DNA of 50,254 nt from IMG/VR virus record IMGVR_UViG_3300037091_000091, positions 1 through 50,254 of that record. One strand, given 5' to 3'. A program made the position numbers and the translations under genes. This document shows, piece by piece, positions 787 to 46,561 of this stretch. The stretch comes from a virus. The notes below the pieces were generated by a model. That model made no database searches and was not told the origin of the DNA. It saw nothing but the letters and a program-made list of their open reading frames with translations. Within the stretch, counting starts at the first letter, position 1; each line of letters starts with the position of its first letter.

Positions 787-1280
787 ACAATTGAAACCCG
801 TTTTCGATTATCCAAATATCTAAATGAATAATCCAAATCATCTAAGTATTCTCTTACCTTGTAACACAAACACAATTTATCAGTTGGTGCAAGCCATGAT
901 ATTTGGCTTAATAGCTGTGTTCTTATCACAATACATTTAATGTCAACATGCTCCGAGTCAAGTTTGCTTATCTCATACTTTGATAAAGCTACAGCGTCCA
1001 ATTCTGGCACTCTTTCTATTTCCGCTTTAGCTTCCGCCAGATTGGTAGTGAACAACTGCAAACAATCCGAATCCGCCATGCATACAACCGGGTCGCTTAT
1101 CGTTTTTGCCATTAAACTGCATATTTCTCTCGATCTTGCTTCCGAAAAACGATGTACATCATCTTTAACACAAGGAACACCAATTGTAATTATCTCGGCT
1201 TTTTCAGTCTGTGCTCCATAAGCATCTATGATTTTTTCAGGTAACCCCTTCTGGGACTGCATTGGAATTAATATTTTCAT
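783..1280 (-). CDS. Glycosyltransferase-like (GT-A fold) protein
   Basis: A 165-residue protein with the outline of a small nucleotide-diphospho-sugar transferase: an N-terminal beta strand (MKILIPMQSQKG), a central VVCMADSDCLQLF segment whose D-S-D fits the metal-binding DxD of GT-A enzymes, and a following region on source-sugar choice (ELDAVALSKYE). It is shorter than usual GT-A domains (about 200-250 residues), so it may be a trimmed member or a binding-only relative. It overlaps the giant tail gene by 4 nt and is therefore translationally coupled to it, which suggests it acts on the tail protein or on host glycan met by the tail. Family assignment rests on the DxD and fold outline only. 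Confidence 0.5.
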   Translation of the reverse strand: MKILIPMQSQKGLPEKIIDAYGAQTEKAEIITIGVPCVKDDVHRFSEARSREICSLMAKTISDPVVCMADSDCLQLFTTNLAEAKAEIERVPELDAVALSKYEISKLDSEHVDIKCIVIRTQLLSQISWLAPTDKLCLCYKVREYLDDLDYSFRYLDNRKRVSIV

Positions 1281-4200
1281 GCCTGTGATAGCGTCCTGTT
1301 TCCACCAGCCAAAACGTCATTGTAGTAGTATGTTAAAGTTGATTCAAGCATAGGGTAAGCTGCTCCATTCAAATTAAATACTCGAAGATCAAAGATTGAA
1401 TGTAAACAATGTGGCATAAAAATAAATCCTGTTTCAATCTGTGTATTAAATCGCCCTATAGCAGAAAAAACAACCGGCGCTCCAAGGTCTACGCTAACTT
1501 GGCTGCTATTAGTGCCGTTATTATATTGAATTAATAAATAATGCCATCCACTCGTCGGAATAGTAACAGAATCGTCAGGGTCTGCCGGATCGTGTGCTAT
1601 TAATTTTCCAGTCACCCCATCAATAGAAATAGTTGATTGATATGGTAAAAATAAAGATTCTATCACAATACCATTGGCGCTGGTCGCCGCTGCTGGATTA
1701 TACCAAAACCCAATAGCAAAAGCATGATTTGTCATGTCAATTATTGAAGGAATACATAAACCAACCTGTCCAATATTAACATAAGCAGAATAAGTATTAC
1801 CGTCCGGCCCTAATATTCTTGCAATAGTGGAAAGAGCGCCTACCCCTAGCGTGGTCATACCCTGCAAAACATTTCCACTAGCGAGGCTAAGAAGTTGAGA
1901 AGTGCGGCCAATTCCGGCTACCGGCGACAAAATAACTGCCTGCGACGTATGTTCGGTGTCTCCAGAATTAGTAGGTGTTCGCTTATCGCTTGATTTGTAA
2001 TACGACAGAAGCCCCGTCATCTGCCAACCAGCGCCGTTGAACGTAATGGAATACCTTATCCTGTGGCCTCTTACTTTTAAGTCGAAATTTATATCATCAT
2101 TATTACCTACCATAGAGGAAACCGTTACGGTTTGCCCTATGTCATTTTGTGCGGTCATGGCAATAGTTAATGGAGTCACGGGATAACTGCTTCCCGGAAC
2201 AGAATCTATAAAAGAAACACCACCAACAGGATCAATATTCGATTTATCAGGGTTCAAGAAAATATGAGATTCCATTTGCTCTATAAAAAATGCTTGCGAT
2301 GTTCCGGTATCGTCAGAGGTTATATGGGTTGATGTAATAGGTGCCATAATGCACAAGGTGTAGTAGTAATCATCATACATATTTGAGTTGTCAATAGCGG
2401 CATAATTGAACCTGAAAAATTCTCCCGGCACAGCACGAACAGGAACAGAATCACCCGTTTTGCTCATAATAAGAGCATTATACAGATAAGAGAATTTGTT
2501 GTTAATAAAATGAACACCCATTTCTCCAAGGGGCAAATCATTAAATTCTCCCTGCCCAATGGCAAACATGCCGGGAAGTATTATATAATAAAACCTGTTA
2601 TTTTCATAGCATAGACCAGATAGGTCATTTCCTCTTACAAATAGCCCATATTGAGGATCATAATCAATGGTTCTCTCAAACAGTTTAAAAATTTTATTTC
2701 TTATTTTACCAAGCGATAAAGAATCTCCGAAAGAGTTTCCGTCAAATAAACAAATATCCGCAGTTTTATACAGTATAACCGCATATAGACCAGCGTCAAT
2801 TTTGCACAATTCATCCATACCATCACATCCGTTATTTTCTCCAATGATTTTCGGTGGAGGAAGAACTCTGACAATCATACCATTTGATTCATCGGTAAAG
2901 TCTATATCAAGGTTGGTTTGAACAACATGACACGACTTCAAAGAGAATATACCAACCGCATCGGAATGTGAACTAAACGCCGTAATTGGTTCAGACACCT
3001 TATCGGTCTGATGATTTGGGTCATAATCTCCAATCAGGTATCTGTAATTATTAGGAAGCTCCGAATAATAGTACGAAATATTACAACTTGCAATAAGAAA
3101 GCCAGGCAGCATTTCTCCGCAAAAACGACTTGATCCGTCCCAAGGAATTGCTCTCATGAAACGAGTTTTGATACCAAAATTTCCGATTTTGGGTGATATT
3201 TCAGCATCTGTATAGCTATCGAGATAAGACCAATTCATTGCCCTAAACGCCATACAGGCGGCAGCTTCTGTAGCAAAATTAGCATCTACAGTGATTGTCT
3301 GAGCTATGCTATCATAAGTGGTAACAATCCTAATATCGCCATAATCAAGAAAACATTGTTCGCCTACTTGTGGAGTAAGAACATAAGGAGCATACGAGCC
3401 AAGAGTATAGTTTTGTAGTGCGGTGCCATTTATTCCACTTTTGTTGGTAGACCATATATGGTTTACGGTCATGGTTTTTCCAGACAATGAACAATCGAAT
3501 ATCCAATGGCTTTCTATCGTTGCCCAAGCTTTAAGGTAGTCATAGCAATAACTAGGGTCAATAAATGTAAAAAGTGTAAATGGATTCACACCATCAATCG
3601 TAAGTTGGATATTTACCGAGGTTGTTGATCCAGATACAAGAGATAATATTTTTGCCCATGCAAGATAATATCCAAAGGCTGTTCCGTATGGCCACTGCCA
3701 CACAATAGGCATTATTCTTCCCACGTCAGCAGTGGTAAAATGTCCCTGCTTTGTTGTGAAAGTGCCTATGTCCGTACCAGAAGTAATTTGTAACCCGGAT
3801 GTAGAGCCATCACCATAAAAAGCTTTCATTATGGGTATATCATCAAGAAGGGCAAAGGCATTTGGATCGTTGCCAACCGTAAGAACATCATTGGTATTTA
3901 TATCTTCAGTACCATAAACGCTATAGTGCGTGGCCGGATCACAGGCTGTACCGCTAGTATTAGGTGACAAATTATCATTAAAATATTTTGCTGCCACAGT
4001 TGTCAAATCAACCAGCAACGCCCCATTTGCAATACTATTAGCATTGAGCCTTCCCGCTCCGCTGACATCCGGCACTACTGAATTAGTAAGGTAATTTAGT
4101 TGATGTACTGTAGTTGCTATTAGTATGGCCTGTATCCATGCACCTGTTCCATCCGTCGCCTGCGTAATAGTTATGTCAGGATACCGCGATGTAATTATTG

Positions 4201-7200
4201 AAGCAAAAGAATCTATCAAGCTGTTTATGGTAACAGGGTCTTGATCTGACAATATAAAAGCTATTTGTACATTATCCCATTGCGGCCCGGAAATTAAAAA
4301 TACCGGCGTGCTTGAACCGGAAATCAAAAAACCTATTGTGGCAAAATCACTGGCAGAATTGACAAAAATTATTGAATTAAGGTCTGATGTCACCCCGGAC
4401 ACTTCCGCGCCCCAAGTAATCCCGTCTGCCGAAGAAATGATCTTCCCGCCGTTTCCCGATGCCCTGAAAAGAGCGTTGCCATAAGCGATAGAAAATAGGT
4501 CGGTTGTAATTCCTGATTGTTGCGATTCCCAAGTAATGGCATCGTCAGAAGTGAAAATTGCGCCACCACTACCAACAGTAATATAAAGACTGTTTCCGTA
4601 AGTAAGTGCAAGTAAATTGTTGGCAATGGGTAAACTTCGTTTTGTCCACGTTAATGCGTCTGCGGAAGTAAATACTGTTCCTGCATCTCCAACAATCACG
4701 TACTGGCTCGTATAGACAATTCCTCGGAAACTTCCTCCTATTGTTGCAGTAGTTTTCAGAGTCCATGTTGTTGCGTCAGAAGAATCATACATTATTCCCT
4801 TATCTGTGGTTGCGATATATTTGGCATTTCCATAAGCGACACAAATAAGATTGTCGGTTATGTTTGTTGTTTTGGGTGTCCAAGTGGTTGAATTTGTCGA
4901 GGTTGTTACTTTTCCAGAATCACCAACAGCAATTAGAATATTAGTATAGTTTGTAACTGAATTTAAGTTAGCAGTTACCCCAGAAGTTCGTATTTGAAAA
5001 ACACTATCATCTCCCATGATTAAACTTGCGAGGACAGAAGCAATTATCCCATCATCTCCAACAACCGTAATGTTTCCGTTTGAGTCTGCTGTCACAGAGT
5101 TTAAATTGTAATTTTGGGGAAGAAAAGTATAACCACCCCAAGCAGAAGCGTCGGATTGTTTTGAAAAAACTATATTTACATGATAACCCGTCGAGTTTCT
5201 TCCAACAGCAACCCATATACCAGTGTAATGAGTTATTGAAGTAAAATCCATCGGCGTGAAAGGAACTATACCTGTCCACGTTACCAAGTCGCTTGATCTA
5301 ACAATAGTTGCTAAATCACCTACTGCGACATAGGTTGAATTTGCAAAAGCAACCGATTTCAGGTTACTAATTTGTCCAGAAGATCGTATAATCCAAGCCG
5401 TCCCATTCGTAGAAGTAATTATTGTTCCGTAATCTCCCACAGCAACAAAGTTGGTTCCGTCCCATATAATTGCGTTGATATTTTTTGTAGTACCAGATGT
5501 TTGCGTATACCATGTTGTTTCGTCTGGAGAGGTTTGGATTAAGCCAGAAGGACCAACAATCACATAAAGGTTAGTGCCGTTATAAACAATTGCGCACGGA
5601 TTTATTGTCGTCTTTGCCCATGTATTTCCAGCATCAGCAGAGGTAGCAATATCTCTGCCGCCAACCGCGACAAGTTTACCCGCATATCCCTGTGCTATGC
5701 CTTTCAAATCCCGTGTTGTATTTGATGTTTTCTGAGTCCACGTTGTTCCTGTAGAATCAGAAATTAATATTACCCCACCTTGGCCTACGGCTACAAATTT
5801 TTGAACACCTTGATAGCTATAATATGCGACAGCGTAAAGAATACTGGAAAAGGTGCCCGAAAGCCTGGTTGTCCATGAATTTCCATCCGTAGATGTTTGA
5901 ATCAATCCGGGGCCTACCGCAACATAAATACCATTGCCGTAACAAACAGCATAATGGTTGCCAAGATTCGTTCCCGTCTTTGGTGACCACGTATTAGTAT
6001 TAACATAGACAGGAAGATCAAATTCGTATGTGCCGCCCGGTGTAAAATTTGACAACGATGGATAGCATATTAGTTTTCCGTTTGTCTGTGCTCCATTATC
6101 ACTTAGTAAAGCCCCAGGATTTCCCGTTTCTCCATTTAGCCAGTTCGTTCCCGAAATTGGCTGAACGGTAGGCGACGTAAAATAGCTCAAATAGTTAACT
6201 GTTGTGGTAAGCCGTATCGCCCCTATAGGAACACCAGAGTTATTGCTGTTAGTTTCAACCAGAATGTCAGGAAAATAAGAGATAATTCCCGGCGCAATAG
6301 AGTCCCTTATGGTGTCAATAGTTACCGGAGTAATTGTTGACATATTGAACAGTATGGTTTTTGCTGCTGCTCCTGATTCCGCAAGAGCAAAAGCATAAGT
6401 ACTGCCGGGAGTAAAATAACTTATTGTTGGGTAAAACGTTAATTGTCCATACAGTTGTCCATTAGCAGTTGCCGTGCCAAGCAGCGTATAGTCGGGGTCT
6501 TTTATGGTTGGCCCAAACTGCTGTGCGCCAGATTCGTGTTGTAGCGCATTTTCTGTACTTATATTTCTGTTAGCAAATATTGGGTAATTTGACGAATCTC
6601 CAACAAAACGACTTTTGGTATAAAGATACCGCCTATTATAACCATTTGTGATAGGTGCATCTGTACAGTTTTTTAGCGGTGCATCTACACTATACTGAGG
6701 ATAAGCAGTGTTATTTTCTGCGGCCTTCCAGTATTGATTGTTCTCCGTGTCAATTATCCATATTCCAAGATAAAGATTTGTCGGAGAGCTATTGCCGAAA
6801 GGATCGTTGTCTGGAATTAAAACTACCAGATTGTCATTGTCCCTGATTATCGTTTTGCAGTTGGGAATAGGGCTTACGCCTACCTGCGTTATAGCCGCCC
6901 AAGAATAATCCCCCGGAGAACACTGGTAAAGCGTAGTCCCTACATGAACGATATTTTTCTGATTATAAGCATTGAACCATTGTCCGTTAAGCGGGTATTT
7001 AAACTGTCCTATACGGCTGGTAACAGTTTGCGGTAAGTCTACTGTGCAGGTATTGTTTGCTGTCCCAACCCCCACGTCGGTAATTTTAGCCGTTTGGTAA
7101 ATTGCAGCATTACTACCGTTGAAATATCCATCCTTATTATCATAGCAAACAAATTTACCTATATCGGCAGAAGTAAAACTATAACCAACTACGGTGACAG

Positions 7201-7480
7201 TAGTTCCCAATTGCGACATGGATGATATTGTATAATAACTGCCAGGATTAGCGCCGAATAGTGGCGGCAATCCCATATTGTCATCTTGTCTGTCTGTTAT
7301 ACCATCACGCGACTTTACGAAGCTGCCGTAACAAACCTGATTTACAAGGGAAAGCTGGAATTTTTTGTCGATAGCGGCACCAGGCATATCAGATGTCTCG
7401 CCAAAAAACTGATCACGCATACGAGTGATTGGCTCTTGGTTCTGTGCCCTGCTGCGTTTTTCAAACGTTCTTCGTGCCAT
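1277..7480 (-). CDS. Giant tail/receptor-binding protein with double beta-propeller
   Basis: A 2067-residue protein, the largest in the window. The N-terminus (residues 1-100, DQFFGET...) looks like a virion attachment region. Residues about 505-1035 hold roughly 13 repeats of about 41 residues with the pattern YVAVGxxGxIxTSxDxxTW, the signature of sialidase/Ycf48-type (BNR-like) beta-propeller blades, enough for two propellers. The propeller block is flanked on both sides by related 85-residue modules (about 383-470 and 1080-1165, both beginning PVTI and ending NGALL- or PGALL-like). The C-terminal 170 residues resemble a LamG/concanavalin-type lectin (FAIGFWYNPA, GWHYLLIQYNNGT). The architecture fits a glycan- or host-binding tail protein. 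No catalytic sialidase residues were identified. The start ATG is preceded by TTAGGT. Confidence 0.8.
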   Translation of the reverse strand: MARRTFEKRSRAQNQEPITRMRDQFFGETSDMPGAAIDKKFQLSLVNQVCYGSFVKSRDGITDRQDDNMGLPPLFGANPGSYYTISSMSQLGTTVTVVGYSFTSADIGKFVCYDNKDGYFNGSNAAIYQTAKITDVGVGTANNTCTVDLPQTVTSRIGQFKYPLNGQWFNAYNQKNIVHVGTTLYQCSPGDYSWAAITQVGVSPIPNCKTIIRDNDNLVVLIPDNDPFGNSSPTNLYLGIWIIDTENNQYWKAAENNTAYPQYSVDAPLKNCTDAPITNGYNRRYLYTKSRFVGDSSNYPIFANRNISTENALQHESGAQQFGPTIKDPDYTLLGTATANGQLYGQLTFYPTISYFTPGSTYAFALAESGAAAKTILFNMSTITPVTIDTIRDSIAPGIISYFPDILVETNSNNSGVPIGAIRLTTTVNYLSYFTSPTVQPISGTNWLNGETGNPGALLSDNGAQTNGKLICYPSLSNFTPGGTYEFDLPVYVNTNTWSPKTGTNLGNHYAVCYGNGIYVAVGPGLIQTSTDGNSWTTRLSGTFSSILYAVAYYSYQGVQKFVAVGQGGVILISDSTGTTWTQKTSNTTRDLKGIAQGYAGKLVAVGGRDIATSADAGNTWAKTTINPCAIVYNGTNLYVIVGPSGLIQTSPDETTWYTQTSGTTKNINAIIWDGTNFVAVGDYGTIITSTNGTAWIIRSSGQISNLKSVAFANSTYVAVGDLATIVRSSDLVTWTGIVPFTPMDFTSITHYTGIWVAVGRNSTGYHVNIVFSKQSDASAWGGYTFLPQNYNLNSVTADSNGNITVVGDDGIIASVLASLIMGDDSVFQIRTSGVTANLNSVTNYTNILIAVGDSGKVTTSTNSTTWTPKTTNITDNLICVAYGNAKYIATTDKGIMYDSSDATTWTLKTTATIGGSFRGIVYTSQYVIVGDAGTVFTSADALTWTKRSLPIANNLLALTYGNSLYITVGSGGAIFTSDDAITWESQQSGITTDLFSIAYGNALFRASGNGGKIISSADGITWGAEVSGVTSDLNSIIFVNSASDFATIGFLISGSSTPVFLISGPQWDNVQIAFILSDQDPVTINSLIDSFASIITSRYPDITITQATDGTGAWIQAILIATTVHQLNYLTNSVVPDVSGAGRLNANSIANGALLVDLTTVAAKYFNDNLSPNTSGTACDPATHYSVYGTEDINTNDVLTVGNDPNAFALLDDIPIMKAFYGDGSTSGLQITSGTDIGTFTTKQGHFTTADVGRIMPIVWQWPYGTAFGYYLAWAKILSLVSGSTTSVNIQLTIDGVNPFTLFTFIDPSYCYDYLKAWATIESHWIFDCSLSGKTMTVNHIWSTNKSGINGTALQNYTLGSYAPYVLTPQVGEQCFLDYGDIRIVTTYDSIAQTITVDANFATEAAACMAFRAMNWSYLDSYTDAEISPKIGNFGIKTRFMRAIPWDGSSRFCGEMLPGFLIASCNISYYYSELPNNYRYLIGDYDPNHQTDKVSEPITAFSSHSDAVGIFSLKSCHVVQTNLDIDFTDESNGMIVRVLPPPKIIGENNGCDGMDELCKIDAGLYAVILYKTADICLFDGNSFGDSLSLGKIRNKIFKLFERTIDYDPQYGLFVRGNDLSGLCYENNRFYYIILPGMFAIGQGEFNDLPLGEMGVHFINNKFSYLYNALIMSKTGDSVPVRAVPGEFFRFNYAAIDNSNMYDDYYYTLCIMAPITSTHITSDDTGTSQAFFIEQMESHIFLNPDKSNIDPVGGVSFIDSVPGSSYPVTPLTIAMTAQNDIGQTVTVSSMVGNNDDINFDLKVRGHRIRYSITFNGAGWQMTGLLSYYKSSDKRTPTNSGDTEHTSQAVILSPVAGIGRTSQLLSLASGNVLQGMTTLGVGALSTIARILGPDGNTYSAYVNIGQVGLCIPSIIDMTNHAFAIGFWYNPAAATSANGIVIESLFLPYQSTISIDGVTGKLIAHDPADPDDSVTIPTSGWHYLLIQYNNGTNSSQVSVDLGAPVVFSAIGRFNTQIETGFIFMPHCLHSIFDLRVFNLNGAAYPMLESTLTYYYNDVLAGGNRTLSQA

Positions 7481-7502: not shown

Positions 7503-9251
7503 CTATTCTCTGACTAAAAAGTTCTGAAATCCCCACAAGTTTGCCTTATCAATTTCCTTATCTTTGCGTTCGTTAAACCAATTAGTCGCATGCAGTCCAG
7601 GGTTCCAGGTAAATTCTTTACTTATGAATTGGCCCAAATATGGTTTACAAATATTAAGTATATAATCATGTGGCAAATCCTCTACTCTGCAAAATCCATT
7701 TTGGGGATTTTCTATTGCCCACATAACAGCCGCAACAAGAGATATGCTCACTTGAATAGTTGTGCTATTTTGTAAAGGAACTAATCTTTTCGCGTCCCTT
7801 ATATTTAAAGATGTTCCACACCACCAAATATGTTTTTTATCATATCCTCCTATTAGGCACCCTAACGTATCGGCTCCACCGACAATCTCATTATCATAAA
7901 TTATTCTTTGTCTAGGCAGTGGCCGGTAATCATTACCACGAAGCTCATTCATTGATGCAATGGCGCAATCCGCCATGCAATATCCATAATAACTTGTAGG
8001 GCGGTATTTATTGTCTTTTGTTGTCAAGAAGCGGGAAATGGAATAACTTTCTCCATGTCTAATCAAAACTCCAACAATTTGGTCTCCTTCTTCCGTGGTA
8101 CTAATCATTTCAGCCCTATTGCCCGTTGCCTCATTGTTTTTGTCAACGTCTTTTTGGGTTATCTCAATTGTATCATCTTTATTGTGAGGAACAAAAACTT
8201 TCACTTTAGTGTCCATCCCCATTCTTGAAAGAAATATCTGATTTTTTGGCCCAACATCCGGCACGGTTGAGTTTTCCGGCATTTCTTTTTCGTGTGTACC
8301 CCATCCAAGTTCTGCCGGTGACGTTCCCTCCTCAACAAACCCCAATACACTCCATGTATTCAAAAATTCCCCTGGTTGTCGTGGCGTGTTGCTTATCTGC
8401 GTGTCCCGTTCGGTGTCTAGTACCACCTTTACGCCCAACTTCTGTGCTAGGGTAGCATAATCGTTTTCTTTTGTAGATTCAATGGATACCCCGCGCTTCT
8501 TGGCAAGATCAATCAATCCCTGCTTCATGAAGTGGGAGATAAGGCCAGGATTAGCGCCGTGGTCAATTACCGCCGTGGTGCCTTTGTTGTCGGGCCAAGA
8601 GTTGATTTCCTCGTCAAGTTCCTGTTGTCTGGCATAAAGACTCTTATCGTAAGGGCTGCGCTCATCAAAACCTTCTGTATAGTCCCACTCCTCAACGCTG
8701 GTGTTCACGTAAAGTATTCCGTTGTCCCGGCAATATTGCAAGAGCTCACGGCAATCTATGTCGTAAGCCAAATCAATGAGCAAATCACCTTCGGAAAGAA
8801 ACTCCTCCATTGTTTCGGTGAAGTTATCCTCTACCACGCGCCGCTGTACAAAGGTTACACCCTGTTCAATCCACTTCTCAAGCACTTTTGACTTGTCTAG
8901 AGCATCCAAAATGGTGATATTGGCAAGATCCACCTCCAAATGCCGCAAAAGGATAGGTAAAACACACTCCGCCACGCTGCCAAAGCCGAAAAACACTATT
9001 TTATTGTCCCAAGGTAGCGTTTTTGCGGCTATAGGAGCGGGTTCTGCGGGTGGCTGCGGCTCTTCCTCGCCTACCTGTCCGTTATCCACAAGGTTAACCG
9101 CCTCTTCGCTCACGTTGGGGCTAGGAGCCTCGTCAGGATGCGAAATAGGCTTATCCTGGCCCTTGCCAGTAATCTTGCCTACAACTTGGCCTATGCCCTC
9201 TGGCACGTCCTGGAGGGGCTTTTTAAGGCGTTCTACAATGTCTTTTACCAT
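7503..9251 (-). CDS. hss: Homospermidine synthase (auxiliary metabolic gene)
   Basis: A 582-residue enzyme predicted to make the polyamine homospermidine from putrescine (two putrescines, or putrescine plus spermidine) with bound NAD. After an 80-residue Pro/Glu-rich N-terminal extension absent from bacterial enzymes, it has a Rossmann motif (FFGFGSVAECVLPIL), then family blocks DHGANPGLISHF, ERDTQISNTP and NTWSVLGFVEEG followed by AELGWGTHEKEMPEN, and the C-terminal NSTTIQVS and PYLGQF blocks. These match the Blastochloris-type homospermidine synthase throughout, including the Trp in the NTWS block described as substrate-contacting. ATG 9251 is preferred over TTG 9254 because AAGGGG lies 6 nt upstream. 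It sits between virion genes, so it is expressed late. The extension may tether it to another protein or to the capsid; that is inference. Confidence 0.92.
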   Translation of the reverse strand: MVKDIVERLKKPLQDVPEGIGQVVGKITGKGQDKPISHPDEAPSPNVSEEAVNLVDNGQVGEEEPQPPAEPAPIAAKTLPWDNKIVFFGFGSVAECVLPILLRHLEVDLANITILDALDKSKVLEKWIEQGVTFVQRRVVEDNFTETMEEFLSEGDLLIDLAYDIDCRELLQYCRDNGILYVNTSVEEWDYTEGFDERSPYDKSLYARQQELDEEINSWPDNKGTTAVIDHGANPGLISHFMKQGLIDLAKKRGVSIESTKENDYATLAQKLGVKVVLDTERDTQISNTPRQPGEFLNTWSVLGFVEEGTSPAELGWGTHEKEMPENSTVPDVGPKNQIFLSRMGMDTKVKVFVPHNKDDTIEITQKDVDKNNEATGNRAEMISTTEEGDQIVGVLIRHGESYSISRFLTTKDNKYRPTSYYGYCMADCAIASMNELRGNDYRPLPRQRIIYDNEIVGGADTLGCLIGGYDKKHIWWCGTSLNIRDAKRLVPLQNSTTIQVSISLVAAVMWAIENPQNGFCRVEDLPHDYILNICKPYLGQFISKEFTWNPGLHATNWFNERKDKEIDKANLWGFQNFLVRE

Positions 9252-9254: not shown

Positions 9255-9710
9255 CTACCCCTTTGGTGTGAACCTGATACCGGATGGTGCAGGCATTTTG
9301 CGCGACATTCCGGCCTCACTTGCCGCTATTGCCTTCATCTGAGCTGGTTTGGTTACAACAGGTCCAGCCTTACCACTGTGTAGCTTACCAGCGTACCCTT
9401 CCTTCATCACCTTGGCAAACTTGTTCTTCTTTTTCTTCTTAAGCGATACCGTACCCTTGGCAAATCCAAAGCGGTTTTTTGATTTTGCATAAGAGCTATC
9501 AGAAGGTTCTGGAATTGGTGAAGGTTTCTCTGATGCTTTTCTTTTCATATATTCCGCGTTTGTGCTGTCAACCCAACGCCTATCCTCGTTGGTTTCCTTT
9601 ATGCCGGTAATACGCTCAAAATCAGCGGCCCTATCATCAGAAGTAGAATCAGAATCCGCACTTCCCTTTGAATAATGGTCGCGTGATTTGCTTATAAACA
9701 TTCCATTCAT
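9255..9710 (-). CDS. Basic hypothetical virion-region protein (151 aa)
   Basis: A 151-residue protein of no recognised family. The N-terminal half is Ser/Asp-rich and polar. The middle has a run of lysines (SLKKKKKNKFAKV) and the C-terminus is Gly/Lys/Pro-rich, ending PAPSGIRFTPKG. Similar strings (GIRFNFAKGTP) occur in the virion protein at 17354-19108, which hints at a shared origin or a shared short binding motif. It is probably disordered and nucleic-acid-binding, and could be an internal virion protein. Its TAG stop lies 3 nt before the homospermidine synthase ATG, and that gene's ribosome site is inside this gene, so the two are coupled. Confidence 0.65.
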   Translation of the reverse strand: MNGMFISKSRDHYSKGSADSDSTSDDRAADFERITGIKETNEDRRWVDSTNAEYMKRKASEKPSPIPEPSDSSYAKSKNRFGFAKGTVSLKKKKKNKFAKVMKEGYAGKLHSGKAGPVVTKPAQMKAIAASEAGMSRKMPAPSGIRFTPKG

Positions 9711-10364: not shown

Positions 10365-13300
10365 TTATTTGCGTTTAGATTTCATACGTGAAACAACATC
10401 GGAAACACCTTTTTTATTTTTATCTCTACTGGCCTGCATAGCGGCCAATGTGCCCGCAATGCCAGCGCCGCCGGTAACGGCGAACATCGGCTGTCCTTCA
10501 CCCATAACAGATGCACGCATGGCGGGGGTGATGGTCATGGAGTGAACAGGCTTTTTACCCTGTGCGTATTCTGTAGCAATTGGCAAATCTGGATTAGAAG
10601 CGGTTTCATTTAAGTATGCATCTTTTACACTTGTGCCCCACTTCTTGCCATACTTGTTAGCGTAATCGACAAGGATTTTGTCGTAGAAGCCCTTCATGCC
10701 CTCGCCGCCGACTTTCAAGTCTACTCCAGACAAGTCCCTTACGTTGCCGCCGCCCTTGCGGGGTGTTCCTTCGCCATTAACAATCTTAGTGGTCACGTCC
10801 TTGCCAACAATTCCTTCAAGGTCATTGGGCGTTTGGCCGTGCTTGGTGATAACTGTTTCGCCGTCTTTTATTGCAGCTATTTCATAGGTTCCGTCCCCGT
10901 CTAGGCGATACCCGATATTGTCTATCTGCTTGCTCAAATCATACCGTTCTGCTTGCGGTTCTCCCGGAGTCCATTCCACCCTGTCATAACCCTTTTCAGC
11001 GGCTTCACGCAATATGCGCTTGAAGGCAAGTTCGTGCCATGTTTTTGAGAAGGGGGCCGCGGGAGTGCGTTGCTGATTCAATCCATCTATGGCCGCTTCA
11101 CGAGAATTAAATGTACCCACGGCCTCGTCACCCTTAAACAATGTCACCCCGCCTAAATTCCTTTGTCGCGTGACATAACCTTCGGGAAGATCAAGCATGT
11201 CATTTTTTGGGAACTTATACCCCTTCTTCCGTCCCGCCTGGTGCCAATCGCTCTGAATCTCTTCTATGAAAAGAACCTTCTTGCCGTCTGCGTCAACGCG
11301 GTCATTCAGGCGCATGTGGGCGAGTACGTTGGGTTCGTCCCAGTGGGGGGAACGATAACCGGTTTCTTGCGGTGTACTTCTTGCATTCCTGTCTTTTGCC
11401 GCCGCTATTGCTTTTTGCTCATTCTCAAATCCGCCTAAAAAAACTTCACCATTCTTGTTGTTCTTGAGTGTCCATTTGCCATTTTCAAGTATTGGAACAT
11501 ATTCGTTTTTTACTTTTTGCGACGGCAGCCTCAGCAGCACTTCCCGGTAGTTTTCGCCGCCGGGGAGTTGGTAGGAACCAAACTTAGTTTCAACCACATT
11601 TCCACCACCGCCATAAACATCATCAGCAACCGTGGAGGCCCAATTTTCATCTTTGGCAAGCTCTGGAAACTTCTTTGTAAGTTCCCTATAAGCATCACCA
11701 TCATTGGCAAGGGTCAGCCACAAAGCATCATCAACATCACCCTGCCATTCTTTCGCAAGCTTCACAACTCTTGGAGTAGCATATTTACTTTTCAAATTTA
11801 TTTTGCCAAGGTTTTGTCCTTTTGTTACCTCTTCCAACTTCACCTTATTCTGCTCAATGAAATCCTGTATCTCCTGCTTGGTAACGGTCTGGTCGCCCTT
11901 TTCCTTTAGGTAATCATCCAGCCCGATCCACTTCATCTCGTCGGCCTTGGTGCCCTTACCTTTGGCAGGATCGAGCATAGACAACCACTGGCTCGCGGGT
12001 GCCTTTGGCATAGTAATATCGGACACGGCTTTTGCGGCGTTGCTGTAGAGCGGGTCTGCAACCTTGCCACCAGTGGCTATCGCGCCGGATTCACCTTTCA
12101 ACATATCAATCACGTTCTGCATTGAGCCGCGCTCCCCCTCAATTGCCGCCTGTTCCTCATGGGACGCTTCTTCTGATTTTCTTTCGTCCTGTTCTGCGGC
12201 GTACTTAGCTTCTTCCCCACCATCCTCTACCTTACCCGCGTTCACCACATGCCCTTTAGTAACCCTTTCCGCCTGTCCACGGCTTGTTTCCGCACTGCGG
12301 ATTTCCTGCATAACCTCATCCCACGTTACCGGCATTTCGCCTTCAGGCTGGCCCAAATCCTCTGTCCAGTATTGCTTTCCTTCATCCGGTGTCATTTCCT
12401 CGCTGCGTAATTCCATTTCACTAGGGCCATAATCACCAGCACTAAATTCAAACGAGTGCCCCTGTAATATTCCTTGTGTTCGTGGAGTAATGTTTACAGG
12501 CTCGCCCGTCTTGGTAGACTCACCCATGACGTAAGCCCACTGGTCTTTCCTGTCGTCACGGAGCGTACCGTTTTCGTCATGGTCAATATGCCACTTGACT
12601 TGTCGGCGCACATTATCACGCCACAATACGCGGTTTGCTTGGGGATTGTCTGTTAAGTCGTGGGTATAAACTTCGCCTGGCTTTCGCTCTTTGCGCTCGG
12701 CAATGCGAGTCAGGCGGTCTTGTGTGGCTTGGTCTTCCGGGCTTAAGCTGCCTTGCGGCTCAGTCTCGCTGCCCTGCGGAAGAACATCTTGTGGCGGCTT
12801 GCTCTCACCTTGGGCGACTTCACCGCTTTGACTTGGTGCACCTTCAACGGGTGGAACTTCGGCACCACGGGGGAGTTGCTCTGCGGCGCGTTTTGCTTCA
12901 ATTTCAGCACGGAGTTCTTCAGAGCGTTGTGAAACATCTCGTCTGTCGCGTCCGAAGGCAGACCATACTCGCTCAACATCTGCGGGGTCAGGATTGTAGG
13001 CATAAACTTTTCTCCCTTCATCATAAGTATAACCTATTTTTTTGAAAAAGTCTATGTTATTATCATTTTTCTTTGATGCTATCTCGTCCGGCGTTATTGG
13101 CTCGTCAGGAAATAGCTCAGATTTTGCATTTTTCTGCGCTTCTATTTCCGTCGCTTTTGCATCACGTTCTGTCCGTAATTGTGCTATCTGCGCCTGCTGT
13201 ATCTCTGGGGTAATAGGTGCTTCCGATGGCTTTTGCCCACGAATACGCTCAATAAGTTGCTCATGCGGGGTCTTTGCCGCCGCTCCGGGCGCTCCTTTTG

Positions 13301-15074
13301 GGGCGGTTGGGGGTGGCTCGACGGGAGCACTAGCCCCCCCTAGATCAATGTACCCGCCTTCATTGCCAAGATTCTTAATTGTCTGCGGTATACCGGGCTT
13401 TGGTACTGGTGCGCCCGGTTCCTGGCCGGGAATGAATTGCGTCTGCATAGTGCCCTGTGGGGCGGGTAGAGCAGCGGGTGGTTCTGGCGGCGGCTCTGGG
13501 ATTTTCGCGCCTTTTCTCATTCCCGAAACGACCTTTGCCCTGTCCGACAATCCATACACCTTCTTGAACATTGCAGCGACAGCCCTGTCAGGATTGTTGA
13601 TAGCCTTGTATAATTCCTTCAATCCGCGCCCAGCTACACCCTTGGCAATCAGCAATGGATTCATAGTAAGAACACCGGCGGCCAAATCTCCACCGGTAAA
13701 AATATCGGTCATGTCTATAATACTTTTCCCCGCTTTACGAGCGTTCACAATAGCGCGGTGATTTACTTCTTTTTCAATTGCTTTCAACGAGCCATATTTA
13801 TTCTTTAGCCCCTGATATCCTTCACCAACTGCGCCGGTTATTTTATTGTCCAGTTCTTCCCGCATAAGGTTAGCAACCGAGCCATCAATTCGGGCTTTTG
13901 CTTTCGCAGTTCGGCCTTCATAAAAACCAGCAAGGGAACTATTCAAATCTTTTATTCTTGCTTCAATAATTTCTGGCGATTGGCCCTGCAATTCCTGTAT
14001 TTCGGCTTTTAAGGATTCGGCATAAGCCCGCGTTTCCGGGTTTTCTTTCAAATCCTTGCTTACTTTGTCAATTTTAGCTATGATCGGAGCAACGTCAAGT
14101 TGAGCACCTTTATCGCCAGCAGCAAGCGCCATGTCGTGATATTGCTTGTAAAGTATTTTTTTCGTCTGATCTACGGCTTGTGCCATTTCAGCCGAGCTTC
14201 TTGGGTGAGGTGCAGACTCTCCATTTTCATCAACTATTTTTACATTATCACGGTTATCCGCAATGGTTTTTACTGCGTCGTTAGCATCTAAATAAAACTT
14301 GTCATGCCGCGCCAATGTTTTCTTTCCGACAACTGTTGGTTTAATTCCCTTGCTGATACCCTTTTTTACCGCTTTCGCTATCTGCTCATCAACCTTTACT
14401 TGTTTTTGTACGATGTCTTTCTTTGCCATTCTCTCAGCAAATGGAGCCACAATACCCTTTTCGAGTTTTTCCGCACCTTTAGCCAATAGTTGTGTGCCTT
14501 TTCCAACAGGAGCTACCATCGAAATGTCACCCACAGAACTTGTAATATCCTTTGCTCTTTGTGGCAACTGCTTCCATGTTTCTACCGCACCCGCTGGAAT
14601 ATCACTCACTTTATTACCGCCAGGAAGTGGAATGTTTCCAATTCCCCTAACAACCTTTTGTAATCCGCTTTCAGTGGCTTGCGCTGCTGGTTGAATTGCT
14701 TGCTGAACAGGTTGCGGAGTAATAGATTTTAACGCATCCGCCGTTGTTCCTATTGCTGCTTTTCCAAGCTCCCACGGTACACCTACCGCTAATCCTGCCG
14801 CTTCACCGAGTCCACTTAGCGCCTGCTCTGGTAATGTGGGCGCTCTTTCTGTTCTTTCCGATCTCGCCGCTGCGCCTGCTGCAATATCTTTCCCGGCCTG
14901 TACAAAGCGTGGCCCCACAGCCGCTTTAGCACCAGACATAAGCAGCGGCCCGAGACGTGACATAAGGTTCTGGACGTGCGCGGGCTGTTGTCCACCGGCA
15001 GCGCCAGACACGGGGGAGGCAAGGTCGGATATGTCCTCGACAGGTGAAGCAAGGTCGGTAATATCTTCAGACAT
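10365..15074 (-). CDS. Large polyvalent internal virion protein (1569 aa)
   Basis: A 1569-residue multidomain protein. The N-terminus has a near-perfect internal repeat (DITDLASPV, DISDLASPV). Residues about 20-230 are Ala/Gly/Pro-rich with amphipathic stretches, 230-500 are long coiled-coil helices, and 520-800 are Pro/Ala/Gln linkers. The last 600 residues carry blocks typical of large polyvalent-protein-associated domains of phages and mobile elements: WIGLDDYLKEKG with TKQEIQDFI, an LFIEEIQSDWHQAGR block, KTWHELAFKRILREAAEKGY, and MKGFYDKILVDYANKYGKKW. Such giants are usually packaged and ejected with DNA. No Zn-protease, lysozyme or ART motif was evident to me. The gene sits between other virion proteins, in agreement with an ejected internal protein. 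Confidence 0.75.
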   Translation of the reverse strand: MSEDITDLASPVEDISDLASPVSGAAGGQQPAHVQNLMSRLGPLLMSGAKAAVGPRFVQAGKDIAAGAAARSERTERAPTLPEQALSGLGEAAGLAVGVPWELGKAAIGTTADALKSITPQPVQQAIQPAAQATESGLQKVVRGIGNIPLPGGNKVSDIPAGAVETWKQLPQRAKDITSSVGDISMVAPVGKGTQLLAKGAEKLEKGIVAPFAERMAKKDIVQKQVKVDEQIAKAVKKGISKGIKPTVVGKKTLARHDKFYLDANDAVKTIADNRDNVKIVDENGESAPHPRSSAEMAQAVDQTKKILYKQYHDMALAAGDKGAQLDVAPIIAKIDKVSKDLKENPETRAYAESLKAEIQELQGQSPEIIEARIKDLNSSLAGFYEGRTAKAKARIDGSVANLMREELDNKITGAVGEGYQGLKNKYGSLKAIEKEVNHRAIVNARKAGKSIIDMTDIFTGGDLAAGVLTMNPLLIAKGVAGRGLKELYKAINNPDRAVAAMFKKVYGLSDRAKVVSGMRKGAKIPEPPPEPPAALPAPQGTMQTQFIPGQEPGAPVPKPGIPQTIKNLGNEGGYIDLGGASAPVEPPPTAPKGAPGAAAKTPHEQLIERIRGQKPSEAPITPEIQQAQIAQLRTERDAKATEIEAQKNAKSELFPDEPITPDEIASKKNDNNIDFFKKIGYTYDEGRKVYAYNPDPADVERVWSAFGRDRRDVSQRSEELRAEIEAKRAAEQLPRGAEVPPVEGAPSQSGEVAQGESKPPQDVLPQGSETEPQGSLSPEDQATQDRLTRIAERKERKPGEVYTHDLTDNPQANRVLWRDNVRRQVKWHIDHDENGTLRDDRKDQWAYVMGESTKTGEPVNITPRTQGILQGHSFEFSAGDYGPSEMELRSEEMTPDEGKQYWTEDLGQPEGEMPVTWDEVMQEIRSAETSRGQAERVTKGHVVNAGKVEDGGEEAKYAAEQDERKSEEASHEEQAAIEGERGSMQNVIDMLKGESGAIATGGKVADPLYSNAAKAVSDITMPKAPASQWLSMLDPAKGKGTKADEMKWIGLDDYLKEKGDQTVTKQEIQDFIEQNKVKLEEVTKGQNLGKINLKSKYATPRVVKLAKEWQGDVDDALWLTLANDGDAYRELTKKFPELAKDENWASTVADDVYGGGGNVVETKFGSYQLPGGENYREVLLRLPSQKVKNEYVPILENGKWTLKNNKNGEVFLGGFENEQKAIAAAKDRNARSTPQETGYRSPHWDEPNVLAHMRLNDRVDADGKKVLFIEEIQSDWHQAGRKKGYKFPKNDMLDLPEGYVTRQRNLGGVTLFKGDEAVGTFNSREAAIDGLNQQRTPAAPFSKTWHELAFKRILREAAEKGYDRVEWTPGEPQAERYDLSKQIDNIGYRLDGDGTYEIAAIKDGETVITKHGQTPNDLEGIVGKDVTTKIVNGEGTPRKGGGNVRDLSGVDLKVGGEGMKGFYDKILVDYANKYGKKWGTSVKDAYLNETASNPDLPIATEYAQGKKPVHSMTITPAMRASVMGEGQPMFAVTGGAGIAGTLAAMQASRDKNKKGVSDVVSRMKSKRK

Positions 15075-20504: not shown

Positions 20505-20526
20505 TAACAAACCCCTCACTATTTGT

Positions 20527-23765: not shown

Positions 23766-25910
23766 TTAAGTTTGAGACGGACTTGCCGTCTGGCTTGCCC
23801 CTTGCGGAGCTGTGAGTGGTTGTAAATTCTGCTGTAATTTTTGCTGGGCCTCGGCATGTGGGGGCTGTTGCGGCTGTCCCTGTTGTTGCCCTGGTTCCTG
23901 TCCTTGCTGTGACCCCACCTCTATGCCAATTTTCTTCAATGCCTGTACTTTTGCTTCGGGTTCAAGATCGGCGTACCTGAAAGCCAACGTCGGCGGCTTC
24001 TGTTGTGCGCCGCCAGGAGGCGTGTTAAGCATTGCATCCATTCTCATCTTACCAAGCTGGTTACGCCGCTCAATCATCTGGGCGCGTATCTTTTCTTCCT
24101 CATCATCACACGGAATAGTTTCAAGAATTTTTCCCTGTGTCATGCCTATTAGCTCAATGTTGTTCACAGCGTCTTTGTAAAGAAGGTTCAATACGTCCAT
24201 GTGAGTCATGCGCTTTGTAAACTGAGAATTAGGAGATTTCGGGGAGAGAGTAACTACAATGCGGCATCGCTGTAAACTTCCCAAATCGTTATCTATTGCA
24301 ATGTCACCACTGGGTAAAGTTTTTATATCATTAATAACTATTTCCGAGCCATCATTCTTATAGAATGTTCGTTTAGTTTTACTATAGAGTATTTTTCCAG
24401 CATCAACATAAGCCTCACCAGCTTCAAGTAGGAAATTCTCTATGTTTCTCATTAAAACAAGCTGCGCCTGCTCAATAATTTGCATCTTCATGTTGAATAG
24501 AATGCCAGGCTCGCCGGCGTGTTCGCTTTTTCCCTCGGCGGCAGGATTTAGCGGTAGAACATCATTGTTCAATTCATAAAGTATTTTAGAAAGCTGATTA
24601 AATATCCCGGCATCAACGTCATTGTGCGGAAAGGGTAAAAACATTGACTTCCCTGATGCAAAAGCGGCAGGGCTGCCAAAGAATTTATAGAACGGATCGC
24701 TCCAACGCTTTTTAATCTCCTCCATTTTTGTATCATCGTTACCAACAATCTCAGGATTGACAGCCCCGCCGCCATGAGCAGCCGAATCAATAATTCCTTG
24801 TGAGTTGTTTATCAGTTTGTTAATAGCATCCTGCATGTTAGTAAGCACATCCATGATTCCAAAAGGCTCACCGACAATACGCTCTGATGCAAGAGGGAAA
24901 AATCTGAGGCGTTTGATCTGGAATATATCATATCCGTCGTAAAGGGGTTGTTCAGGAACAATACCAGGACATATTGTGCAAATTTTTGGCTTTTTTATTG
25001 TTTGATAAATGGAATGAATGTCTTCATATTTTATTTTGTTTGCTTCAACGAAATCCTTTTTAACTTGGTAGTCATCGGTCTTGGGCAACTCAAGATTTGC
25101 GTTAATGGCAACCTCTACAACATCTTCTTCCTCAACAACGTAATTATATTCCACTACATCATATTGCCCATTCATGGTTTTAGACTGTGTATAGTCTTTG
25201 TAATCTGAGATTTTTGGAGTATCAAAATTTCCGCCCAGTGTTAAATCCATTAGGAGGTTTCTTTGTATTCTCTCTGTTTGGTCTGGGTAGAGCTGCATGA
25301 TCTGGTCGGCGGTGAGCTTCATGTATTTGAAAACAAAATTTAAGTCTTTGCTTACGCCCGTTCTCCAATTAGGATCATAAGCAACCATCCCTGGCTGGCA
25401 CACTTCCCACCCTATGCGCCCCATAGGGTCAATTTCATTGGTAAAAATCATCTCCATTACAGAATCAGAAATCAGCGCATAGATGATGTGCATGAGAAAG
25501 TTGTAGTCCCAGCGCGAATAACTCTGGTCAACCTTCATCATGTCCTGGATAGCATACATCAGCGTATTACGCTTGCCATCCATAGGCAACACGTCAATGT
25601 CCCAGATGTTCTTTACGATTGCCGCAGCAAGCCCCTGAACCTTGCGTTTGGAAAGATTCATCACAATAGGCACACGGCGGGCCTTGTCCAGTTTTTTAAT
25701 CTGCTCTGGGTCGAGTTGGTATCCGCAGTATTTGTCGAGGTTTAAAAAGAGGCGGTCACGACGAGGAATTAAAGCGTTGAGACAATTCTGGAAGCGGGTA
25801 TTAACGAAATTTACCTTCTGCTGTCCGACACCCATCGCCCGTTCGATAACGGCAGCGGCGGCAGTAGCGGCACTCTCTGGCAAACCTTCTTGTAGCTGAT
25901 TTTCTGGCAT
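23766..25910 (-). CDS. Portal protein
   Basis: A 714-residue portal, which would form the dodecameric ring through which DNA is packaged and ejected. Typical P22-type portal blocks are seen: N-terminal helices with RRDRLFLNLDKYCGYQL, VPIVMNLSKRKVQGLAA, then GWEVCQPGMVAYDPNW (wing), ASERIVGEPFGIMDVLTNMQ and NKLINNSQG (clip region), and a long C-terminal helix with a Gln/Pro-rich disordered tail (QEPGQQQGQPQQPPHAEAQQ). The size is close to P22 gp1 (725 residues). Its promoter with an upstream activator box lies at 25981-26032. Confidence 0.88.
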   Translation of the reverse strand: MPENQLQEGLPESAATAAAAVIERAMGVGQQKVNFVNTRFQNCLNALIPRRDRLFLNLDKYCGYQLDPEQIKKLDKARRVPIVMNLSKRKVQGLAAAIVKNIWDIDVLPMDGKRNTLMYAIQDMMKVDQSYSRWDYNFLMHIIYALISDSVMEMIFTNEIDPMGRIGWEVCQPGMVAYDPNWRTGVSKDLNFVFKYMKLTADQIMQLYPDQTERIQRNLLMDLTLGGNFDTPKISDYKDYTQSKTMNGQYDVVEYNYVVEEEDVVEVAINANLELPKTDDYQVKKDFVEANKIKYEDIHSIYQTIKKPKICTICPGIVPEQPLYDGYDIFQIKRLRFFPLASERIVGEPFGIMDVLTNMQDAINKLINNSQGIIDSAAHGGGAVNPEIVGNDDTKMEEIKKRWSDPFYKFFGSPAAFASGKSMFLPFPHNDVDAGIFNQLSKILYELNNDVLPLNPAAEGKSEHAGEPGILFNMKMQIIEQAQLVLMRNIENFLLEAGEAYVDAGKILYSKTKRTFYKNDGSEIVINDIKTLPSGDIAIDNDLGSLQRCRIVVTLSPKSPNSQFTKRMTHMDVLNLLYKDAVNNIELIGMTQGKILETIPCDDEEEKIRAQMIERRNQLGKMRMDAMLNTPPGGAQQKPPTLAFRYADLEPEAKVQALKKIGIEVGSQQGQEPGQQQGQPQQPPHAEAQQKLQQNLQPLTAPQGASQTASPSQT

Positions 25911-26613: not shown

Positions 26614-26846
26614 GATATATTTTGATATTCCAGTAACAGCCACATAAACCTAATTTCATCCTTATCAATATCAATCAACTTTAGCGGCTTGCCGGGAACT
26701 CTTATAATCCTGAAAAACGCACTACATTTATGACAAAAAGCATAATCCTTTCCCGGTATTACAAGAGCGTTACATAAAGTATCGTGCCTGCCGCCCTTGT
26801 TGCGCAGCCTGGGACACCTCACGGCCTGTAGCGCGGGGTGGGTCAT
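26610..26846 (-). CDS. Small zinc-ribbon-like protein (78 aa)
   Basis: A 78-residue protein with four spaced Cys (RCPRL, TLCNAL, FCHKC), suggesting one zinc-binding site of Com-like or rubredoxin-like type, followed by a basic linker and a helical C-terminus (DEIRFMWLLLEYQN). It overlaps the preceding glycosyltransferase by 4 nt (ATGA). A translational or nucleic-acid-binding role would match the Cys arrangement; this is inference. Confidence 0.55.
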   Translation of the reverse strand: MTHPALQAVRCPRLRNKGGRHDTLCNALVIPGKDYAFCHKCSAFFRIIRVPGKPLKLIDIDKDEIRFMWLLLEYQNIS

Positions 26847-30644: not shown

Positions 30645-30650
30645 ATTGCC

Positions 30651-34245: not shown

Positions 34246-36096
34246 TTACCACCCCTGCGCATATCCTTTATCTATTGGTTTCAACGTTCCGTCCGGGTTA
34301 CGCTCGCGCCCCTTTAATGTCAGCTCCTGTTCCTTCTGGTATTCAAACTTTTCTTTGCTGAACATTTTGAGCGGCTTTCTGTTGTCCTCGGCTTTAACCT
34401 TGATTGCTATGTTATTTACGATATACAGCAACGCTTCTAAGTGCGGGGAAAGGTTCTTTACTTCCGTATCGCTTTGCATGGCTTGTCGTAGAGATTCTGC
34501 TTGGCTATTCATGGTGAACTTTCGCCGGTCAATTACGTTATTAAGAAAATACAACGTTCCAATAGCGTCAAACGTCTGGTCAATAACAACCGGAACCTTC
34601 TGCGCGATTAACTGGCTCACAAGGTTCTGCACCGCAGCGCCATTGGTAGGATTCATTACGGGCGGCGCTACATTCATGGCTTTTTTCACAGATTCGCAGT
34701 AAGCCTTTATGTTCTCAATAGTGTTCATTGTAGCTTCAAAATTAACATGCAAAAGTCCATTATCCTTATCCCATTGGCAGGTGACAATAGTCGCCCAATT
34801 TTCACGCACCGCAAAGCCGTTTATAACCTCGTAGAACCCACCCAGCGGATCATCCTTAACAAACTTTGATATGTCATGTACCAAACACTTCATGCGCTCG
34901 ATAGCCTGTAGGTGTTTGCTTATAACGGCATAGCGACGAGCAGCCATACTATGTCCAAAATCATCCATAGGCTTATCGGTAAAAGTGCCATCATCTTTCT
35001 GAATGTAACGAAAATTGCGCTGCTCTTTGATTGAGTCTACACTGCGCTTAGTCCAGACCTGGCGGTATTCATTAACCTTCAAAATACCAGCACGAACGCT
35101 ATCTGGACCTTTTTCCACACCCTTTATGTTGAATCCGTATGAGGCAATTTCTTTAATTGATTTAGGCTCTGCACTATCAGCAAATATTTCGTCATGGTTT
35201 TTGCGAACACCTAAAGATTCCATACGGCGGGAAATTTGCGGATTGGTGAGGCCGGTTTCGTATATTAGCTGATCACAATAAAGCTGGTCACCGACCACCA
35301 TACATTTAATCAATGAGGTTTCGTCAGTAAAGCCAAAGTCTAGCCCGAAAAACTCAGGGCCGGAGCCGGGCAGCGGCATTTCGTCACAAGTGGTAAACAG
35401 CGGGTGTACAAGCCCCTCAATGTTACCCACAAGACCCAAGCCATAAACATTCCACCAATTTACATCTCTTTCCCTACGTGATTCAATCTTATCTATTGTG
35501 TCTTTGGGAAGAACCTGTCGAGCCTGCATATAGGTGGAATGAATAAAGCATATTTGTTTGTGATCTTCTGGAAAACAATCTTTTGTAAAATCGTTTATTC
35601 CGTTTTGTTGTAGTAATTGATGTATCCAAAATTCAGAAACGGGGTTATAATCAACAAAAGTACAGCCCTCCGTTCTTACATCAAGTTCATCAAAAGAATC
35701 CATTGTAATGTTATTACACTCGTTGAGAAAAAGAATATTTCTCCTACCACCACGCAACCTGGCGGAATCATCCGCGCTGAAAAACTCCATCTGGGATTTA
35801 TCAAACTTGTAAATATGATCCGTTCTATTGAACGCCATATCGTCAAACTTTTCACCCATTATTTTTTGAAAATCACGGATTGCTCCGCGCTTAAGGTGAG
35901 GAATTGATTCAGATACAACAGAAATTATACCAGCATTGTAAAAAGATGATGCAGCTAATACGATAAGCAATTGAAGAATTGAATAGGTTTTACTACTTGA
36001 AGTTCCACCCTGATTCACAATGACTTTATAACCCTCCTCGAACGCCCTGCGGTTACGAGAAAATACTGTTGTGGTTTCAAGATTCGGGAGAATCAT
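34246..36096 (-). CDS. terL: Terminase large subunit
   Basis: A 616-residue packaging motor and nuclease. The ATPase half has a Walker A at residues about 30-37 (GGTSSSKT) and a Walker B with catalytic Glu (ILFLNECNNI). The nuclease half starts with FFGLDFGFTDETSLIKCMV and has an ADSAEPKSIKEI block with acidic metal ligands. It would pump DNA into the prohead through the portal. ATG 36096 is preferred over a TTG at 36123, although its upstream GTGGGCCGG is only a fair ribosome site; it overlaps the small subunit gene by 20 nt. Confidence 0.93.
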   Translation of the reverse strand: MILPNLETTTVFSRNRRAFEEGYKVIVNQGGTSSSKTYSILQLLIVLAASSFYNAGIISVVSESIPHLKRGAIRDFQKIMGEKFDDMAFNRTDHIYKFDKSQMEFFSADDSARLRGGRRNILFLNECNNITMDSFDELDVRTEGCTFVDYNPVSEFWIHQLLQQNGINDFTKDCFPEDHKQICFIHSTYMQARQVLPKDTIDKIESRRERDVNWWNVYGLGLVGNIEGLVHPLFTTCDEMPLPGSGPEFFGLDFGFTDETSLIKCMVVGDQLYCDQLIYETGLTNPQISRRMESLGVRKNHDEIFADSAEPKSIKEIASYGFNIKGVEKGPDSVRAGILKVNEYRQVWTKRSVDSIKEQRNFRYIQKDDGTFTDKPMDDFGHSMAARRYAVISKHLQAIERMKCLVHDISKFVKDDPLGGFYEVINGFAVRENWATIVTCQWDKDNGLLHVNFEATMNTIENIKAYCESVKKAMNVAPPVMNPTNGAAVQNLVSQLIAQKVPVVIDQTFDAIGTLYFLNNVIDRRKFTMNSQAESLRQAMQSDTEVKNLSPHLEALLYIVNNIAIKVKAEDNRKPLKMFSKEKFEYQKEQELTLKGRERNPDGTLKPIDKGYAQGW

Positions 36097-36532
36097 CCGG
36101 CCCACACAGCATCTTTTTGACAAAGCTTGCTGTAGCTTGATCGGTAACTATAATTTGAGGTGGTACTGATTTTATTTTTTCACCACCAGAGGTAATGTCG
36201 TGATTGTCGCGGAATTTATTTATATTTTTTGCGAGAAAGATTGCAGACGGCGCGTTGTAGCCGTGTATTTTACCAGTTGCACCCTGCTCAAGAAGGTCAA
36301 AATAGTAACGCTTGTATTCGCGCTCTGCTTCTTCTATCTTTTCGGTGGGAAAATCAACTGGGAAATCTTTTATATATCGTTCTATTGTTTTGTCAGAACA
36401 CTCTGGAAAATATGAAGGATACCCGCCTTTTTTCAAGTAAGAACAATATCTTTCACACAAAGCTTGACGTTCTTTTGGGGTTTTGTACTTTTCTGCAAAG
36501 TTGTTATTAGGAGGGGCACCTTCAGCAGCCAT
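36077..36532 (-). CDS. terS: Terminase small subunit
   Basis: A 151-residue protein upstream of and overlapping the large terminase. ATG 36532 has AAGGTG 6 nt before it, better than TTG 36547. It contains a KTPKERQALCERYCSYLKKG helix and ECSDKTIERYIKDFP, an HTH-like DNA-binding region, a coiled-coil (EEAEREYKRYYFDLLEQG) and a C-terminal segment with SAIFLAKNINKFRDNHDI typical of small terminases. It would recognise the packaging site and hand DNA to TerL. First gene after the leftward promoter at 36588-36616. Confidence 0.82.
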   Translation of the reverse strand: MAAEGAPPNNNFAEKYKTPKERQALCERYCSYLKKGGYPSYFPECSDKTIERYIKDFPVDFPTEKIEEAEREYKRYYFDLLEQGATGKIHGYNAPSAIFLAKNINKFRDNHDITSGGEKIKSVPPQIIVTDQATASFVKKMLCGPDDSPES

Positions 36533-45791: not shown

Positions 45792-45805
45792 ACTTTAAAA
45801 TAAAT

Positions 45806-45834: not shown

Positions 45835-45840
45835 TAACAT

Positions 45841-46536: not shown

Positions 46537-46561
46537 TTAAAATATTGCTTCCTTTCTAATT

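Follow-up and report, generated by a model that had tools for sequence, protein, structure and literature searches.

The gene for a homospermidine synthase (HSS) lies among virion genes in the viral DNA analysed here (the 50,254-nucleotide IMG/VR record IMGVR_UViG_3300037091_000091, hereafter the window), which raises the question of what a polyamine enzyme is doing there. An earlier note on this DNA suggested that the enzyme, which has an extra N-terminal domain, might be packaged or delivered to the assembly site, making homospermidine for DNA condensation. The open reading frame was found where that note had placed it, with genes for a P22-type portal protein and a large terminase subunit on the same strand (Table 1), and from this gene order we infer late expression.

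Table 1. Coordinates of the HSS gene, its parts and related genes in the window
Feature	Position	Strand	Basis or remark
HSS gene, 582 aa, complete	7503..9251	-	Pfam, PDB sequence and fold matches; catalytic residues invariant
Variable head, codons 1-48, two short helices, flexible/low-confidence	9108..9251	-	AF2 pLDDT 36-64
Conserved proline-rich arm (LVDNGQVGEEEPQPPAEPAPIAAK), codons 49-80, predicted to dock on the enzyme	9012..9107	-	All 12 clade members with readable start
NAD-binding (Rossmann) domain, codons 85-228	8568..8999	-	PF03435 (Sacchrp_dh_NADP) 1.9e-22
Saccharopine-dehydrogenase-like C-terminal/catalytic domain, codons 232-542	7626..8558	-	PF16653 (Sacchrp_dh_C) 1.9e-18
Acidic insert relative to cellular HSS, codons 356-392	8076..8186	-	Alignments; cellular matches break at 356/390
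Shine-Dalgarno AAAGGGG region for ATG 9251, inside 3' end of upstream gene	9256..9266	-	
Upstream neighbour gene, 151 aa, lysine-rich	9255..9710	-	C-terminus similar in L010
2067-aa tail-like protein, directly downstream of HSS	1277..7480	-	Role inferred; homologue downstream of HSS in L010
1569-aa protein at ejection/internal-protein position of P22-like late operon	10365..15074	-	Role inferred from position
Portal protein, P22-type	23766..25910	-	PF16510 1.5e-16; phrog_156 4.5e-18
Terminase large subunit	34246..36123	-	phrog_2 8.3e-28

The window enzyme and its gene

Pfam domains, PDB sequences and the predicted fold all identified the window protein as HSS, as the note had read it. Its PDB matches were HSS chains only (phmmer, best E=1.8e-89), and neither NCBIfam nor PHROGs gave a family for it. 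The AlphaFold2 (AF2) model, with a mean pLDDT of 89.4, was matched by Foldseek to solved HSS structures at E~1e-46, with a TM(target) of 0.90-0.93 and 31-35% identity in the structural alignment, against only ~1e-12 and a TM of ~0.7 for carboxyspermidine dehydrogenase (CASDH); saccharopine dehydrogenases fit the model far less well than solved HSS do. Bacterial HSS is an NAD-bound enzyme related to carboxyspermidine dehydrogenase, and the solved bacterial forms (B. viridis 4PLP/4XQ9, P. aeruginosa 6Y87 and L. pneumophila 2PH5) share their fold, domains and active-site residues with the window protein. The note had called the enzyme near-complete in its family blocks; the qualifier can go, since both domains are there over their full length.

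We took the substrate-binding and catalytic residues of B. viridis HSS (Krossa et al.), together with E117, from PMC4725965 and located all nine in the window protein, where E117, N162, E210, W229 and E237 correspond to E187, N234, E281, W300 and E308, and H296, E298, Y323 and D361 to H399, E401, Y422 and D461. The nine are invariant in a 56-sequence alignment. Purifying selection on HSS is seen in a pN of 0.13-0.28 against a near-saturated pS of 0.74-0.89; these values are quoted in place of a dN/dS figure because synonymous sites are saturated in most pairs. On these residues the window enzyme is apparently active and would convert two putrescine molecules to homospermidine. This reaction turns a divalent into a trivalent amine and needs no S-adenosylmethionine.

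The reading frame runs from an ATG at 9251 to a stop codon at 7505-7503, with an alternative TTG start at 9254. A strong Shine-Dalgarno sequence, AAAGGGG, stands 6 nt ahead of the ATG, within the last codons of the preceding gene, and none of the later starts around the Rossmann domain is preceded by a site of similar quality. The gene is tightly packed in its operon: the upstream stop codon is 3 nt from the ATG, and the downstream gene follows after 22 nt. Promoter-like and terminator-like sites nearby were not above expectation or were on the wrong strand. The 151-aa upstream protein contains 32 K/R and 17 D/E, has a strong Shine-Dalgarno sequence of its own and may serve as a DNA-binding protein inside the virion. 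Downstream, the 2067-aa protein has many propeller-like 'VAVG..G.I.TS.DG.TWT' repeats and a PF19755 match. The 1569-aa protein gave no match in a Pfam search; its last part is 71% identical in L010, where it too lies upstream of HSS.

Another IMG/VR contig, 57.9 kb long, shares 99.96% identity with the window over 19 kb. The sister contig G001 matches, at its end (L156:13770-17495), the window's other end (45300-49330), so the genome appears to be circular or circularly permuted and about 62 kb long. For the window portal, the phage record collection yielded no relative. Between the portal and terminase genes (26843-31766) lie glycosyltransferases and a weak radical-SAM match, and a GroES-like protein (28938-29291) and a GNAT acetyltransferase (30174-30644) are encoded there too. 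The genome also encodes an IS605 OrfB/TnpB-like protein (39421-40560), an MT-A70 family DNA methyltransferase (48686-49330) and, within the structural operon, a NUMOD3 homing-endonuclease-like ORF (19797-20543). A gene adjoining HSS in L016 (11719-12063, minus strand) also looks GroES-like by eye.

A phage-only clade in virion modules

Scans of IMG/VR yielded 12 further contigs with a closely related HSS (L009-L017 and L152-L154). These proteins are 54-67% identical to the window protein, the best cellular forms about 45-50%. In the tree, the window protein and its relatives (12 full-length phage proteins) were monophyletic with a support of 100, on a long stem of 0.65-0.9 changes per column; other phage HSS (a T4-like group, and Motura with two other large phages) were placed elsewhere or left out of the tree. 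No HSS of the phage clade was found at E<=1e-95 in 334 Omnitrophota genomes, a weak search with no positive control.

The HSS gene lies in the virion module of every clade contig, in 12 distinct phages with four gene orders and two unrelated head types, P22-like and portal/MuF/scaffold/capsid. Among the P22-like phages, it follows the inferred ejection block in the window, L010 and L015 (where it overlaps the gene of a 770-aa protein) and the tailspike in L016 and L154. The order in L016 (contig G009), where several labels were inferred from gene order and length, is terminase-like, portal-like, capsid-like, DNA-ejection family (phrog_598), two large proteins, tailspike-like and HSS. In L013 and L152 the order is small terminase (inferred), large terminase, portal, MuF, HSS, scaffold and major capsid, and the same order is seen as far as HSS in L011, L012, L014 and L153. 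In L009 the HSS ATG falls within the 3' end of the portal gene, and MuF, scaffold-like and capsid genes come after HSS; L017 is a fragment that begins within HSS and continues with scaffold-, MuF- and capsid-like genes. HSS is not fused to MuF; in L009 and L011-L014 the two are separate genes lying near each other.

Phage-encoded HSS was already known, as was one virion-associated viral HSS. Like the window, Achromobacter phage Motura and Ralstonia phage phiRSL1 encode HSS (PMC9992855), and the phiRSL1 enzyme is reported to be functional (PMC9992855, Li et al. 2023); the records searched contained no match to phiRSL1, which is likened here by its description. In contrast to the window protein, to which it is ~28% identical, Motura HSS has no extension, adjoins a glutathionylspermidine synthase gene and does not lie in a virion module. 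A phage-only clade that spans two head types, its position in virion modules and the N-terminal arm and head were not found in the literature searched, mostly without subscription journals.

Two other groups of records contained HSS. In L155 (contig G025), an HSS outside the clade (47%) is followed by an ornithine/arginine-decarboxylase-family gene (together L155:9980-12684), the one hit when the records were searched for putrescine-making decarboxylases. The opposite strand of this contig carries phage-like portal genes, and the pair is probably a bacterial operon next to a prophage. T4-like contigs L018-L048 carry another, distinct clade of phage HSS (for example at L048:7061, L020:9959, L026:6394 and L041:3688). 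Its short N-terminal leaders, MKLHEIAQ, MKTFKAFRQQL and MKNFIDFLAEQ, recall T4 capsid-targeting sequences, which is suggestive only; in L048 such a leader is also present on other ORFs (MKLSEIAM, MKLDEINP), and in L026 HSS lies, by eye, among neck-like genes. If these T4-type leaders are real, HSS packaging would have arisen twice.

The N-terminal arm and head

The Shine-Dalgarno sequence at ATG 9251 and the retention of the arm in 11 further phage genes indicate that the N-terminal extension is real. It was described in the note as an 80-residue acidic and proline-rich segment; the length is right, and the composition holds for residues ~36-80 (9 D/E, 1 K/R and 9 P) but not for residues 1-35 (7 K/R and 5 D/E). 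The note's statement that bacterial forms do not show it held for the cellular HSS examined: none has the arm. Most of them have 10-25 residues ahead of the Rossmann motif, and longer N-termini may be an artefact of picking the farthest ATG. Unlike bacterial HSS, the window protein combines a head and arm of ~80 residues, an insert of ~37 residues (codons 356-392) that the note had not mentioned and that varies in length within the phage clade, membership of a phage-only clade and a place in a virion operon.

Comparison across relatives, which the note had proposed, separated a conserved arm from a variable head. The arm (consensus LVpNGQxGExEPQLPAkPAPIAxK) adjoins the Rossmann fold, and its pattern V-x-N/K-G-x-x-G-E-x-E-P-Q/K/R ... 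P-I/V-A is kept in 12/12 clade proteins with a readable start. The AF2 models give it a pLDDT of 88-91 in the window protein (from residue 51) and 82-91 in L013, and it is predicted to pack on the enzyme body. The head is flexible or helical and 3-51 residues long; it is not universal, since it has three residues in the P22-like L016 and nine in L154. Mean pairwise identity within the clade is 0.59 for the arm, 0.36 for the head and 0.65-0.68 for the body, the enzyme domains being the best-conserved parts. This bears on whether the protein is a catalytically dead HSS fold that now has a structural or minor role in the virion, as the virion-module position and the phage-specific arm and insert might suggest. 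With the nine substrate and catalytic residues invariant in full-length clade members, and the enzyme domains changing least, we reject this reading on active-site conservation and regard it as highly improbable.

The heads appear to differ by virion type. Those of portal/MuF-type phages are mutually similar, and the heads of the window and L010 are similar to each other only. L009 has the enzyme body nearest to the window and L010, yet its head resembles those of other portal/MuF-type phages (z 4.5-13, 0-1 of 400 shuffles) and not those of the window and L010 (z -1.0 and -0.6). These comparisons fit a head adapted to the virion type. However, L009 and the portal/MuF group are not firmly split in a tree of the body alone (bootstrap 82, p-AU 0.118), so the agreement of head with virion type may reflect shared descent. 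A head swap by recombination was considered, and at this p-AU proof was not reached.

We also considered whether the arm is a general virion-targeting motif or the head a shared domain. Scanning IMG/VR with a degenerate DNA pattern for the arm (20 stretches) gave convincing in-frame matches that were all HSS genes, and a profile and phmmer search of phage contigs, with an IMG/VR scan, placed the head on HSS only. Neither part was found on other phage proteins in these searches, and the head matched no known capsid-targeting signal and no other protein of the clade phages.

Virion attachment, late expression and polyamine chemistry

The explanation we tentatively prefer, at close to an even chance, is an active, late-made HSS attached by arm and head to virion assembly, perhaps for delivery. 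An HSS of a phage-only lineage would be made late, along with the virion proteins, and would catalyse the formation of homospermidine from two putrescines with NAD+ as a bound cofactor. The arm, packed on the enzyme body as predicted, would present the variable head peptide, which would tie HSS to some part of the virion; MuF or ejection proteins, close to the portal, are the likeliest partners. In this way HSS would become part of the particle, inside it or on its surface, and would work where virions are assembled, be delivered together with the DNA, or both, converting host putrescine (2+) to homospermidine (3+), to the possible benefit of the phage. The phage records searched, several being fragments, yielded no putrescine-making (ornithine/arginine) decarboxylase of the PF02784 family, and HSS would therefore depend on putrescine from the host.

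Known systems offer precedents for such cargo. The MuF protein of SPP1 binds the portal, and for enzymes fused to MuF delivery into the host has been proposed (PMC5576092, PMC5512222). Like MuF-linked, polyvalent and T4 internal proteins, which are packaged and injected, the window HSS combines an added N-terminal segment with a gene beside portal, MuF or ejection genes; it differs in that it is not fused to MuF, has no known targeting peptide and, in an uncultivated phage represented by metagenome contigs, is at most a candidate for injection. A further precedent is the HSS of chlorovirus PBCV-1, a virus of a eukaryotic alga; this enzyme is reported from purified particles (PMC7019647) and is likened by description, not sequence, to the window enzyme, a candidate for packaging.

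The virion-module position may, on the other hand, merely give late expression, and the arm could merely stabilise the enzyme. HSS would then be a soluble, active enzyme in the structural operon for late, strong expression, supplying more trivalent polyamine for translation, packaging or burst, with the arm as a structural element and no tether. We give this rather less than an even chance. The intact active site agrees with it, as do the known and active phage HSS elsewhere (PMC9992855), the docking of the arm on the enzyme itself in the AF2 model, the restriction of arm and head to HSS and the clade members nearly without a head. It leaves unexplained, however, the repeated portal, MuF or ejection adjacency in four arrangements, the similarity of heads by virion type, and why Motura HSS, outside the clade, lacks both the virion position and the arm. 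Because of the portal/ejection position, the docked arm with its exchangeable head and the PBCV-1 HSS, we consider virion attachment slightly likelier than late expression alone; the position, the docked arm, the virion-type heads and PBCV-1 are circumstantial backing for the note's packaged or delivered enzyme. A bolder version is less likely, though a fair possibility: the phage-only HSS, as a mobile virion cargo with a docked adaptor arm and a head exchanged to suit P22-like or portal/MuF-type virions, would travel in the particle and, on infection, turn host putrescine into homospermidine ahead of phage gene expression.

The note's full model, in which HSS inside the particle supplies homospermidine to neutralise and condense the packaged DNA, fares less well. 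Trivalent cations do condense DNA better than divalent putrescine, and the late, virion-linked gene position suits the model. Phage JG004, moreover, needs host spermidine synthesis (PMC3120641). Against this, PBCV-1 virions hold HSS, yet particle polyamines cover only ~0.2% of DNA phosphates (PMC7019647), too little for neutralisation, which weakens condensation as a purpose. A supply of putrescine within the capsid is also doubtful, and the absence of a PF02784 decarboxylase from the phage records searched counts against the model. Condensation of packaged DNA thus found no direct support, and we consider it improbable.

Even if HSS is merely expressed late, the phages described here add one more clade to the few phage HSS described. 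If it is in the particle, it would be a metabolic enzyme, rather than a toxin or anti-restriction protein, carried by tailed phages and common to unrelated virion types. The clade offers a testable case for the role of virion-associated HSS, a question that has stood since PBCV-1.
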